Below, in pieces: positions 6,301 through 18,300 of a stretch of DNA of 64,000 nucleotides. Positions within the stretch are counted from its first letter, which is position 1, and every line of letters starts with the position of its first letter. The stretch comes from Piscicola geometra (taxonomy: Eukaryota > Annelida > Clitellata > Hirudinida > Piscicolidae). Made by a program: the position numbers and the translations under genes. The stretch spans positions 445,001 through 509,000 of the forward strand of contig OX030961.1 in the NCBI GenBank assembly GCA_943735955.1. Reading direction: 5' to 3'. The notes below the pieces were generated by a model that worked only from the letters and a program-made list of their open reading frames with translations, made no database searches and was not told the origin of the DNA.

Positions 6301-9300
6301 CAACTTTGTATATATAAAACAAACAATATATTTCATGATTGCATCAACTCCTCAAAAAGTAACTCACAACACCCCTCATCACACCCACCTCTTCTTGTAA
6401 GTCCGGGGCAGACTGGGCGTTTCCGACTCGACCAACTCCACTCGCAACTCCTTCAGGAAGGCGAGAGCCGACAACTCACCGCCGAACTTCTTCATGATGG
6501 TGGACATTTTGACTGGATGCAGGTCCAGGCCGATGGCGTCCAGTAGCGGCTTGAAGAGCACCTTTGAGGGTGTGTTTGGAGGTTGAAAGACTGCCAGAAA
6601 CTACAAGAAAAAGCAATGTCAGTGAAACGAGTCAGTTTTTCTAAAACTGAAACAAATTATTCAAAAAAGAAAAAAAAGTTGAGTTATTAGAAGATATATG
6701 AAAATGGACACCTGTGAGTTGATGAGTTGTAGAGAGTTACTGGCGACGAGTGTCTTTTTGGTAAGATGAACCGGTCCACCCTTGCCTCCCTCTCTCAACC
6801 ATCCCCTCTTCAGCGTTGTCGAACCGAACTGAGAGGTCTTTTTGGCGCTATTGTTGCTGTTGTAGATGGAGTCCTGTTGCTTGCTCATCCAGCGGTAGAG
6901 ATCGGAAGAATGCTTCGCCTTGTCGTTCGGAAGAAAAAAAACGCTTGGTTCGTGTGTTGGGTCGATGTTTTTGAGGTGGTTGTCGTTGGTGACGTTTGCT
7001 CCATACGGCTCGTAGCTGTTGAAGTTGCTGGTGTTGTTGAAGAAGCTGGTGTTGGCGGTGTTGTTGAAGTCGATTTGATCGGTGTTTCTGTTGTAGTTGT
7101 TGTTGTTGCTTCCGTTGAGAGCAGTGTTGTTGTTGTTGTAGTAGACGATATTTCTAGAGCCTTTATACTTATCTCTACAGCTGCTAAAGACTTGAATGTG
7201 CTCACCCTCATTGGTTGCCATGACGTCATCGTTGATGGAATACTTGTTCCTGTTGTTCGTTGACTTCATGTCGTTGTTGTTGTTGTTGTTGTTGTCGTTG
7301 TCGTTGTTATTGTAAGCATTAGCATCGTTGTTGTTTGATTGCATGTGCGTGAAGATGTGGTCGCTACTGAGGCTCGAGTGGCCAGTGCTTCCTTCGGCGT
7401 TCCTCCTCTTCAGCTGGGGAGCGATGTCTGTGGGCGGTAGTGGTGAAAGTAGAATAGAATTTGTGTAATGTCTGTGGGCGGTAGTGGTGAAGGTAGAATA
7501 GAATTTGTGTAATGTCTGTGGGCGGTAGTGGTGAAGATAGAATAGAATTTGTGTAATGTCTGTGGGCGGTAGTGGTGAAGGTAGAATAGAATTGATGTAA
7601 TGTCTGTGGGCGGTAGTGGTGAAGGTAGAATAGAATTTGTGTAATGTCTGTGGGCGGTAGTGGTGAAGGTAGAATAGAATTTGTGTAATGTCTGTGGGCG
7701 GTAGTGGTGAAGGTAGAATAGAATTTGTGTAATGTCTGTGGGCGGTAGTGGTGAAGGTAGAATAGAATTTGTGTAATGTCTGTGGGCGGTAGTGGTGAAG
7801 GTAGAATAGAATTTGTGTAATGTCTGTGGGCGGTAGTGGTGAAGATAGAATAGAATTTGTGTAATGTCTGTGGGCGGTAGTGGTGAAAGTAGAATAGAAT
7901 TTGTGTAATGTCTGTGGGCGGTAGTGGTGAAGGTAGAATAGAATTTGTGTAATGTCTGTGGGCGGTAGTGGTGAAGGTAGAATAGAATTTGTATAATGTC
8001 TGTGGGCGGTAGTGGTGAATGTAGAATAGAATTTGTGTAATGTCTGTGGGCGGTAGTGGTGAAGGTAGAATAGAATTTGTGTAATGTCTGTGGGCGGTAG
8101 TGGTGAAAGTAGAATAGAATTTGTGTAATGTCTGTGGGCGGTAGTGGTGAAAGTAGAATAGAATTTGTGTAATGTCTGTGGGCGGTAGTGGTGAAAGTAG
8201 AATAGAATTTGTGTAATGTCTGTGGGCGGTAGTGGTGAAGGTAGAATAGAATTTGTGTAATGTCTGTGGGCGGTAGTGGTGAAGGTAGAATAGAATTTGT
8301 GTAATGTCTGTGGGCGGTAGTGGTGAAGGTAGAATAGAATTTGTGTAATGTCTGTGGGCGGTAGTGGTGAAGGTAGAATAGAATTTGTGTAATGTCTGTG
8401 GGCGGTAGTGGTGAAGGTAGAATAGAATTTGTGTAATGTCTGTGGGCGGTAGTGGTGAAGGTAGAATAGAATTTGTGTAATGTCTGTGGGCGGTAGTGGT
8501 GAAAGTAGAATAGAATTTGTGTAATGTCTGTGGGCGGTAGTGGTGAAAGTAGAATAGAATTTGTGTAATGTCTGTGGGCGGTAGTGGTGAAAGTAGAATA
8601 GAATTTGTGTAATGTCTGTGGGCGGTAGTGGTGAAGGTAGAATAGAATTTGTGTAATGTCTGTGGGCGGTAGTGGTGAAGGTAGAATAGAATTTGTGTAA
8701 TGTCTGTGGGCGGTAGTGGTGAAGGTAGAATAGAATTTGTGTAATGTCTGTGGGCGGTAGTGGTGAAGGTAGAATAGAATTTGTGTAATGTCTGTGGGCG
8801 GTAGTGGTGAAGGTAGAATAGAATTTGTGTAATGTCTGTGGGCGGTAGTGGTGAAGGTAGAATAGAATTTGTGTAATGTCTGTGGGCGGTAGTGGTGAAG
8901 GTAGAATAGAATTTGTGTAATGTCTGTGGGCGGTAGTGGTGAAAGTAGAATAGAATTTGTGTAATGTCTGTGGGCGGTAGTGGTGAAGGTAGAATAGAAT
9001 TTGTGTAATGTCTGTGGGCGGTAGTGGTGAAGGTAGAATAGAATTTGTGTAATGTCTGAGGGCGGTAGTGGTGAAGGTAGAATAGAATTTGTGTAATGTC
9101 TGTGGGCGGTAGTGGTGAAAGTAGAATAGAATTTGTGTAATGTCTGTGGGCGGTAGTGGTGAAGGTAGAATAGAATTTGTGTAATGTCTGTGGGCGGTAG
9201 TGGTGAAGGTAGAATAGAATTTGTGTAATGTCTGAGGGCGGTAGTGGTGAAGGTAGAATAGAATTTGTGTAATGTCTGTGGGCGGTAGTGGTGAAGGTAG

Positions 9301-15300: not shown

Positions 15301-18300
15301 TGTCTGTGGGCGGTAGTGGTGAAAGTAGAATAGAATTTGTGTAATGTCTGTGGGCGGTAGTGGTGAAGGTAGAATAGAATTTGTGTAATGTCTGTGGGCG
15401 GTAGTGGTGAAGGTAGAATAGAATTTGTGTAATGTCTGTGGGCGGTAGTGGTGAAGGTAGAATAGAATTTGTGTATTGTCTGTGGGCGGTAGTGGTGAAA
15501 GTAGAATAGAATTTGTGTAATGTCTGTGGGCGGTAGTGGTGAAGGTAGAATAGAATTTGTGTAATGTCTGTGGGCGGTAGTGGTGAAGGTAGAATAGAAT
15601 TTGTGTAATGTCTGTGGGCGGTAGTGGTGAAGGTAGAATAGAATTTGTGTAATGTCTGTGGGCGGTAGTGGTGAAGGTAGAATAGAATTTGTGTAATGTC
15701 TGTGGGCGGTAGTGGTGAAGGTAGAATAGAATTTGTGTAATGTCTGTGGGCGGTAGTGGTGAAGGTAGAATAGAATTTGTGTAATGTCTGTGGGCGGTAG
15801 TGGTGAAGGTAGAATAGAATTTGTGTAATGTCTGTGGGCGGTAGTGGTGAAGGTAGAATAGAATTTGTGTAATGTCTGTGGGCGGTAGTGGTGAAGGTAG
15901 AATAGAATTTGTGTAATGTCTGTGGGCGGTAGTGGTGAAGGTAGAATAGAATTTGTGTAATGTCTGTGGGCGGTAGTGGTGAAAGTAGAATAGAATTTGT
16001 GTAATGTCTGTGGTCGGTAGTGGTGAAGGTAGAATAGAATTTGTGTAATGTCTGTGGGCGGTAGTGGTGAAGGTAGAATAGAATTTGTGTAATGTCTGTG
16101 GGCGGTAGTGGTGAAGGTAGAATAGAATTTGTGTAATGTCTGTGGGCGGTAGTGGTGAAGGTAGAATAGAATTTGTGTAATGTCTGTGGGCGGTAGTGGT
16201 GAAAGTAGAATAGAATTTGTGTAATGTCTGTGGGCGGTAGTGGTGAAGGTAGAATAGAATTTGTGTAATGTCTGTGGGCGGTAGTGGTGAAGATAGAATA
16301 GAATTTGTGTAATGTCTGTGGGCGGTAGTGGTGAAGGTAGAATAGAATTTGTGTAATGTCTGTGGGCGGTATTGGTGAAGGTAGAATAGAATTTGTGTAA
16401 TGTCTGTGGGCGGTAGTGGTGAAGGTAGAATAGAATTTGTGTAATGTCTGTGGGCGGTAGTGGTGAAGGTAGAATAGAATTTGTGTAATGTCTGTGGGCG
16501 GTAGTGGTGAAGGTAGAATAGAATTTGTGTAATGTCTGTGGGCGGTAGTGGTGAAAGTAGAATAGAATTTGTGTAATGTCTGTGGGCGGTAGTGGTGAAG
16601 GTAGAATAGAATTTGTGTAATGTCTGTGGGCGGTAGTGGTGAAGGTAGAATAGAATTTGTGTAATGTCTGTGGGCGGTAGTGGTGAAGGTAGAATAGAAT
16701 TTGTGTAATGTCTGTGGGCGGTAGTGGTGAAGATAGAATAGAATTTGTGTAATGTCTGTGGGCGGTAGTGGTGAAGGTAGAATAGAATTTGTGTAATGTC
16801 TGTGGGCGGTAGTGGTGAAGGTAGAATAGAATTTGTGTAATGTCTGTGGGCGGTAGTGGTGAAGGTAGAATAGAATTTGTGTAATGTCTGTGGGCGGTAG
16901 TGGTGAAGGTAGAATAGAATTTGTGTAATGTCTGTGGGCGGTAGTGGTGAAGGTAGAATAGAATTTGTGTAATGTCTGTGGGCGGTAGTGGTGAAGGTAG
17001 AATAGAATTTGTGTAATGTCTGTGGGCGGTAGTGGTGAAGGTAGAATAGAATTTGTGTAATGTCTGTGGGCGGTAGTGGTGAAGGTAGAATAGAATTTGT
17101 GTAATGTCTGTGGGCGGTAGTGGTGAAAGTAGAATAGAATTTGTGTAATGTCTGTGGGCGGTAGTGGTGAAGGTAGAATAGAATTTGTGTAATGTCTGTG
17201 GGCGGTAGTGGTGAAGGTAGAATAGAATTTGTGTAATGTCTGTGGGCGGTAGTGGTGAAGGTAGAATAGAATTTGTGTAATGTCTGTGGGCGGTAGTGGT
17301 GAAGGTAGAATAGAATTTGTGTGATTTAAAATTAATCACAAAGAAAAAACTCAAAGAAGGCAAACAAAACACACACAAAACCAACCGCTTTCGAGGTTCT
17401 GGAAGGAGATCCTGCCCATCGTGTCGATCCTCACCAGGTCGATAGGCGATGCCTTCAGCGTGAACGGAGGCACCTGGTTCGCTGACTCGCAAAAAGAAGC
17501 GGGCTTCGGCGTCAGAAGAGCGCCTCCTTCCGCTCGCAAGAGAAAGGTTTTCTCATCAACGGCATCGACTGCACTGAGGTTCCTAGCACTGTCTCCAGCA
17601 GGATTGGAAGCTCCATCGCCACCTGCGTGCATGCCCTCGTTGCCGAGATAGTCCTGCGAGCTGTCGGCTGAGGTGTTGTAGTAGCGGCTCTGAACCAGCG
17701 GGACCGCGTAAGCCACCTTCACTCTCTTTTTAGACTGGAATGTGGAAGGGAGGAAGGTGGAAGATGGAGGATGAAAGGGAGGATGGAATGTGGAGTGTGA
17801 AAGGGAAGATGGAGGATGGAGTGTTGAAGGGAGGATGTACTACTACTACTACTACTACTACTACTACTACTACTACTACTACTACTACTACTACTACTAC
17901 TACTACTACTACTACTACTACTACTACTACTACTACTACTACTACTACTACTACTACTACTACTACTACTACTACTACTACTACTACTACTACTACTACT
18001 ACTACTACTACTACTACTACTACTACTACTACTACTACTACTACTACTACTACTACTACTACTACTACTACTACTACTACTACTACTACTACTACTACTA
18101 CTACTACTACTACTACTACTACTACTACTACTACTACTACTACTACTACTACTACTACTACTACTACTACTACTTCTATTACTACTACTCTCATCATTAA
18201 CGATATCATTATCATGGAGCGAGCACTGACGTCAGGTACAGACGGTCCCACAAAAAGGTCCTCTAACGCCTCGACTCCCACGCTGTTGACGTATCTGTAA

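Follow-up and report, generated by a model that had tools for sequence, protein, structure and literature searches.

A 44-bp minisatellite carrying 225 copies of a presumed 3' splice site in a BLTP1 intron of Piscicola geometra

We analysed a stretch of 64,000 nucleotides from Piscicola geometra (assembly GCA_943735955.1, contig OX030961.1, positions 445,001 to 509,000 of the forward strand; G000:C7:445001-509000 in the 171 Mb genome of 66 contigs). This whole stretch is called the window, and positions refer to it unless a contig is named. An intron of a BLTP1 gene (KIAA1109 / tweek) on the minus strand was found to be filled by a tandem array with a period of 44 bp, each unit of which combines an intron 3' end with the first bases of the following exon. 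With a probability of roughly 0.55, we consider the array to be a minisatellite grown from this splice junction without selection, the donor of exon 12 probably joining several of its units. If so, it suggests a route by which the splice signal of a gene can grow into a large repeat within that gene in the absence of selection for it.

Using Tandem Repeats Finder, 225.0 copies of the 44-bp period were detected at 7424-17322 with 98% matches and 0% indels. The sense unit reads TACACAAATTCTATTCTACCTTCACCACTACCGCCCACAGACAT, and its intron part contains a branch-point-like motif TTCAC (read by eye), a C/A-rich tract and CAG. The minus strand of the array (9899 nt) holds exactly 225 AGs, one per unit and all spaced by 44, and not a single GT; its three frames are free of stops, while 370-378 stops per frame were counted on the plus strand. 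At the exon-proximal end the junction reads CCGCCCACAG/ACATCG (the slash marks the splice point); the unit stops 4 nt into exon 13 and is followed by CGCTCCCCAG. The intron (17385-7428) is 9958 nt long with the AG of the last unit and 102 nt long with that of the first. Its parts are as follows.

17323..17385, minus strand: unique intron leader of 63 nt from donor to array, 29% GC, defined by composition and found in 12 donor-bearing copies
7424..17322, minus strand: 44-bp array of 225 units, each with 40 nt of intron 3' end and 4 nt of exon (ACAT), defined by Tandem Repeats Finder and the counts of AG, GT and stops
11472..14375, minus strand: block of 66 units (units 68-133 in transcription order), a perfect duplicate of 8568-11471, coordinates derived from unit numbers
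8568..11471, minus strand: second block of 66 units (units 134-199), coordinates derived from unit numbers
7424..7467, minus strand: last (exon-proximal) unit, its AG at 7429-7428 being the presumed acceptor of exon 13

An array of such a kind is not a product of chance. The perfect tandem duplication of 66 units (2904 bp, units 68-133 equal to units 134-199) marks it as recently multiplied, and because of this the openness of 9.9 kb is the openness of one 44-mer. The absence of GT and of stops is thus a property of a single unit plus 13 substitution types and not independent evidence. An earlier sequence-only reading of the window had described a 225-copy array of 44 bp without GT or stop in any sense frame, and both descriptions were reproduced by the counts above. 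It had also assigned the same tract and AG to all units, which was confirmed for the AG (225 of 225) and came close for the tract: scored over 23 nt, 209 units equal the last one and the other 16 fall below it.

Guided by open frames and splice signals, we placed ten minus-strand exons by eye between 22526 and 6389. Joined, they encode 1078 residues without a stop and cover the middle part of BLTP1. These exons and one further downstream are given here.

18231..22526, minus strand: upstream BLTP1 exons A-F of the open-frame model (22526-21950, 21623-21407, 21049-20815, 20614-20418, 20159-19569, 18868-18789 and 18294-18231)
17386..17734, minus strand: BLTP1 exon 12, 349 nt, ending GCG/GTTGGT in phase 1, coding-like to its end
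6712..7427, minus strand: BLTP1 exon 13, 716 nt, Asn-rich, beginning ACATCG with a phase 1 start; DLYRWMSKQQDSI aligns to the ortholog profile
6389..6600, minus strand: exon 14, 212 nt, aligning within the ortholog profile, with a weak BLTP1_M match together with the end of exon 13
4181..4933, minus strand: downstream exon I, ends placed by eye; the open frame 4179-5054 matches BLTP1_M 942-1002 (E 6.1e-10)

The spliced protein model matched the Pfam family BLTP1_M (PF25039) with an E-value of 1.1e-23 and 83.1 bits at a cut-off of 27. By this middle-region match the gene is assigned to BLTP1, as had been proposed before, and the homologues and the ortholog profile agree. Exon 12 and the start of exon 13 on their own had no match in Pfam, and exon 14 together with the end of exon 13 gave a weak match to BLTP1_M 843-893 (E 0.13, under the cut-off). 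A search with residues 1-760 inside a longer query yielded 31 homologues from the best 7980 candidates (most words in common); the named ones were KIAA1109/BLTP1-type or uncharacterised proteins, and identity to the BLTP1 homologues did not exceed 49%, with 12-55% of the query covered. Among solved structures searched by sequence no BLTP1 relative was found, the one match being to an unrelated ribosomal entry (E 0.57). Against the profile of 10 of the 31 homologues, the spliced protein aligned over two collinear stretches, of which the second spans exon E through exon 14. The junction of exons 12 and 13 sits in a stretch left unaligned by this profile; homology therefore neither fixes nor contradicts the exact splice point. 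Exon 12 carries G or C at the third position (GC3) in 15 of its last 16 codons, and the leader behind them is AT-rich. Among acceptors of the right phase around the beginning of exon 13, the last unit of the array scores best, and the frame across the junction, which would carry VRIDTMGRISFQNLES, came out at sequence level as the earlier reading had stated it.

Three side observations concern the repeats of this gene. Between 3200 and 22600 the introns of the model, judged by eye, often start with G/T-rich repeats and end C/A-rich, and these ends could pair with each other. Within the open frame of exon E a 25-bp repeat (19751-19918) with a sense consensus devoid of GT was seen, which apparently has more units in other copies and is either translated or part of an intron end that the model does not resolve. 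Downstream of a BLTP1 exon a 33-bp array of about 88 copies (315-3209) has a sense consensus GGGAAGGTTGTGGTGG... with a donor-like AAG/GTTGTG and is a possible donor counterpart of the acceptor array.

Acceptor strength was estimated with a matrix of 23 positions built from 14 other acceptors, which we ourselves had placed in the same gene. In nine of these 14, one being ACACCACCACATTGCCACAG, the 17 positions of the tract hold at most 3 T. The last unit scored 11.13, and exactly this value was obtained for 209 of the 225 units, the other 16 ranging from 6.88 to 10.6. Outside the array there are 514 AGs, counting the 14 training sites, and 2.9% of them reached the score of the last unit. Nearly all upstream units are therefore predicted to be no weaker than the last one. 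This comparison had been named beforehand as part of what could refute the sequence-only reading; the upstream units were found to score like the last, which supports that reading. Folding of three units was predicted at 0.0 kcal/mol. With its 102-nt intron, the first unit would come near the lower end of the range spanned by the model's eight other introns (111-700 nt). Every third acceptor, counting from and including the last, stays in frame through exons 13 and 14 (75 of 225), in agreement with the earlier statement on acceptors 3n units upstream. The remaining 150 lead to a stop early in exon 13, 75 with the ending ...RKHWPLEPQ and 75 with ...HHYRPQTSLPS; such mRNAs would probably decay. 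Even use of all acceptors would give one third of in-frame mRNAs at any unit number, and peptides from the array frame would be of the DITQILFYLHHYRPQ type.

The anatomy suggests the following order of events. A BLTP1 intron of about 102 nt would have had its last 40 nt duplicated in tandem together with the first 4 nt of the next exon. Growth to 225 units would then have proceeded at least once by the 66-unit block that is visible in the array, presumably through unequal exchange. Each unit brought along an acceptor that by sequence scores like the real one, lower values being obtained for 16 of the 225, and arrays of differing length lie in other copies of the BLTP1 segment near contig ends. 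The array RNA, almost free of G and without predicted structure, would favour no unit by its sequence. The donor of exon 12 would probably pair with several different units, the upstream ones of which would be transcribed first. One third of the choices would keep BLTP1 in frame and lengthen a poorly conserved part of it by 0 to 74 blocks, each of 44 residues; two thirds would lead to a premature stop and probably mRNA decay. Since under even use the in-frame share would be about one third at any unit number, further growth would cost little more, and 225 units could therefore be reached without selection for anything. Pairing of the leader with a unit was considered as a chooser of acceptors and rejected, as 33% of shuffled leaders paired equally well and such pairing could not tell units apart anyway.

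A comparable arrangement is known from the variable number tandem repeat (VNTR) in intron 18 of human ABCA7, for which a report describes a 25-bp unit with its first two bases forming the donor of exon 18, one allele of 9711 bp, and a skipping of exon 19 that depends on repeat length, whereas retention of a single unit does not (PMC5954066). By division, this allele corresponds to about 388 units. Both cases are intronic tandem repeats in which the splice site of the adjoining exon (here the presumed acceptor) is itself part of the unit, and in both the use of the next unit's site shifts the frame. In contrast, the 3' splice site is repeated here and the 5' splice site there, so that the two are mirror images; the exon-proximal site of ABCA7 is the one transcribed first, and its reported length effect is skipping of the next exon. 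Two features of the ABCA7 type were found in the present array as well, with an AG at the homologous place in 225 of 225 units and a unit number that varies among copies of one assembly (15, 42, 42, 52, 225). The system would work like a splice-site-bearing minisatellite of the ABCA7 type, but for an acceptor and in a recently multiplied BLTP1 segment. By analogy, ABCA7 indicates that a repeated splice site need not be chaotic. The sequence-only reading had known of no described case with this many copies; for acceptors this held in the literature searched, for donors it did not, given the 9711-bp ABCA7 allele (PMC5954066).

Several points weigh against the use of many units. The acceptor matrix rests on 14 self-placed sites and is coarse, with leave-one-out scores from -10.4 to 14.3. 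We infer the use of any array acceptor, the last one included, from sequence. In a kinetic toy calculation with assumed rates, slow splicing (10 min) combined with fast transcription let only 28% of transcripts commit before the last unit was made. Retention of a single ABCA7 unit is reported at 2 +/- 1% independent of repeat length (PMC5954066), and an exon-proximal site can therefore dominate an array. This precedent favours the foremost alternative, which we regard as possible yet rather unlikely: exon 13 would be defined from its downstream donor, the last unit alone would be used, and the whole array would be removed as a harmless intronic repeat. That the window copy keeps ten open in-frame exons despite 225 units also speaks for it. 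Against it stand the score of the last unit, which is no higher than that of 208 of the 224 others, and the order of synthesis, as the exon-proximal donor of ABCA7 is also made first and the exon-proximal acceptor here is made last. The other introns of the model (111-700 nt) are of a size at which recognition often acts across the intron and not across the exon, which would favour the first units with their 102-nt intron.

The stronger form of the preferred reading, in which BLTP1 transcripts use many of the 225 acceptors at random and form an mRNA ladder in 44-nt steps, one in three giving 0-74 extra blocks of 44 residues, is put forward tentatively and appears doubtful to us. If it is true, copies with 15 to 225 units would constitute a natural dose series for the choice of the spliceosome among identical acceptors. 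Studies of how a 3' splice site is chosen among equals (the first made, the nearest to the donor or the nearest to the exon) usually set two or three sites against each other. With 225 sites of nearly the same sequence and without predicted structure, and with copies of 15, 42 and 52 units, junction counts along the array would measure the rule of choice directly.

The BLTP1 segment is present in at least 22 near-identical copies, as judged from full-length matches of exon A. This exon gave 23 matches, 22 of them full, at 97-100% identity. For exon 12, 12 full matches and 4 cut at the same point were obtained (16 in total), and for exon I 6 matches, 5 of them full. Exon 13 gave at least 90 matches among the best 40 of 203 candidates (10 full, 3 long partial, 3 tail pieces and 74 short, many of the latter clustering in simple Asn-type sequence). 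The search with the unit itself scored 7 candidate places and did not include the window's own array, so that all array counts are lower bounds. We fetched 21 loci (L009-L029) at 20 places, L016 and L017 being neighbours. With 18 of these 20 places and the window, 44-bp arrays were found at 19 loci at least; the fetched sequence of L028 and L029 contained none. Exon 12 or exon 13 adjoins the array at 17 of the at least 19 array loci (window included), and of the others L011 has other BLTP1 exons only and L012 has none in the 7.8 kb fetched. The leader is kept in all 12 copies with a full exon 12, again including the window, with a base change in one.

Uninterrupted arrays from the donor to exon 13 were seen in 5 of the 12 donor-bearing copies, with 225 (window), 52, 15, 42 and 42 units. 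Five further donor-bearing copies (L016+L017, L018, L020, L021, L024) contain an insert with an ATT tail inside the array; of these, L020 lacks exon 13, L024 retains a portion of it and L021 ends at a gap. A gap is met in L015 as well, and L019 lacks the start of exon 13. In L009 and L025-L027 the last 143 nt of exon 12 are deleted together with the donor at one common breakpoint, and exon 12 abuts the array. Through this deletion the array becomes exonic, and its frame continues into exon 13 in L009 and L026 but not in L025 and L027. L014 has an array and part of exon 13 without exon 12, and the array of L012 is preceded by the same ATT-tailed sequence as found in the inserts. An array can thus outlast deletions around it or change its place, and L012 may be a case of either. 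The insert, which ends in (ATT)n and by look resembles a long or short interspersed element (LINE or SINE), lies at a TTCTA site of the 44-bp array and occurs three times in C7:411-423k (L016+L017). Array and insert seem to have multiplied together.

On each of nine large contigs the copies lie within 1.3 Mb of one end. A subtelomeric placement was considered and found unsupported: 200 bases read at 14 ends of 13 contigs (the copy-near end, both ends for C32) contained no TTAGGG, two of these ends being only N and several consisting of other tandem repeats, while six of the nine opposite ends carried TTAGGG, two were N and one had none. The ends close to the copies are satellite-rich or unfinished; wherever a telomere was reached, it was at the far end, and the copies may lie near centromeres.

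The number of copies leads to the question of which one works. It appears unlikely, and more so than use of the last unit alone, that the window copy is not the working gene, being one of many amplified BLTP1 segments near contig ends in which acceptor choice is without consequence. The 22 full-length exon A copies at 97-100% identity would fit such a case, as would the damage seen in some of them: in four copies exon 12 is shortened by its last 143 nt and has no donor, and others lack parts of exon 13. In the fetched copies the exons showed no frameshift and one stop (L014, exon 13); exon E with its 25-bp repeat did not align cleanly and was left out of this comparison. Of the 61 coding variants among copies 36 were nonsynonymous or stop versus 71% expected (P=0.03), indicating that constraint appears weak at most. 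On the other hand, the copies are nearly identical, and the parent gene should therefore be among the exon A matches. The window copy was the sole one found with exons A, 12, 13, 14 and I all complete, the completeness of L015 and L021 being beyond judgement as they run into gaps, and all of its 10 modelled exons are open. The next most complete copy (C32:150-161k) has 671 of 756 queried bases of exon I. The window copy is thus the best candidate for the working gene, though unproven.

Selection on the array itself was analysed with 977 complete units from 27 array stretches, of which 10 out-of-register units from one stretch were set aside. The remaining 967 units showed 36 substitution types, and two of these, C to T at two adjacent tract positions, accounted for 274 of 356 cases. 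Relative to the expectation from the kinds of substitution observed, types creating a stop or a GT or destroying the AG showed no sign of depletion, either in the window array (2.58 expected, 1 observed, P=0.24) or in all 27 stretches (7.29 expected, 6 observed, P=0.38). The single such type in the window array sits in a doubly changed unit that makes no stop; other arrays do contain stops, one GT and lost AGs. A selection that keeps the array open was rejected as unsupported by this test. Likewise, a unit number held at a multiple of three was not significant: for the values 225, 15, 42, 42 and 52, three of four distinct ones are multiples (binomial P about 0.11, by hand), and the two 42-unit copies look like one duplicated copy. 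That the array is retained for useful length variants of BLTP1 from in-frame acceptor use is very improbable: all its sense frames are open, inserts would land in the stretch unaligned by the ortholog profile, and the fused copies L009 (24 units) and L026 (39 units) remain open from exon 12 across the array into exon 13, but the lack of any shortage of variants with a stop, a GT or a lost AG, in the window array as in all arrays, the fused copies L025 and L027 (34 units each) that are out of frame and carry a stop, and the persistence of the array at L011 without adjoining exons 12 and 13 and at L012 without any BLTP1 exon in 7.8 kb all argue against it. Equally hard to credit is a true junction between a donor CTG/GTGAGG inside exon 12 and an acceptor CCCCAG/CTG, with the array merely upstream and the last unit no acceptor: both sites are in phase 0 with the frame remaining open, and this donor scores 6.0 versus 4.0 for GCG/GTTGGT (matrix from nine donors), but the 49 nt between the two candidate donors look coding (GC3 in 15 of 16 codons, 57% GC versus 29% in the following leader), and CCCCAG scores 6.5 versus 11.13 for the last unit and lies 14 nt beyond its good AG.

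Tandem acceptors of the NAGNAG type also offer several acceptors that compete for one donor, with small steps in the protein; the present array shares the competition for one donor and differs by steps of 44 nt and 225 sites, each with its own tract. No paper joining NAGNAG with a minisatellite was found in open-access full text. Introner elements are repeated sequences with a splice signal at many genomic places. A splice-signal repeat at many places is found here as well; in contrast to introners, nearly all of the arrays found, at least 19, lie in copies of one BLTP1 junction, have no donor and were not seen to have made introns in other genes. For the potato RdRp gene, a tandem duplication carrying an intron 3' end is described as a route to a new intron (PMC4974935). 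As in that case, the duplication here would have copied an intron 3' end (branch site, tract and AG) with the adjoining exon, whereas there a GT was supplied and a new intron made, and here 225 copies without GT arose. As the unit has no GT (0 in 9899 nt), no new intron can arise from it, and the array falls outside intron gain by tandem duplication. A description of an acceptor array was not found in open-access full text, absence from which is weak evidence.

Two further repeat structures were observed elsewhere in the window. At 26660-29110 a reverse-transcriptase frame is split by about 2.4 kb, with RVT_1 pieces at 26323-26694 (weak) and 28992-29948. The insert is bounded by inverted 16-bp tandem repeats, outside CGGAGAAAAAGCCTCT / AGAGGCTTTTTCTCCG and inside GATAAAAAGTCTTCAG x39 / TGAAGACTTTTTATCC x45, and looks like a mobile element with tandem arrays as terminal inverted repeats. 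A reverse-transcriptase search listed at least 120 matches, the few named ones being from fish at 36-40%, and a phage search gave no match. From 32333 to 64000 and running off the window, a 48-bp array has about 660 copies inside it; a plus-strand frame is open from 32223 to 45362 with 16-residue repeats of the KVERGSEDARESGSGD type, BLTP1 lying on the opposite strand.

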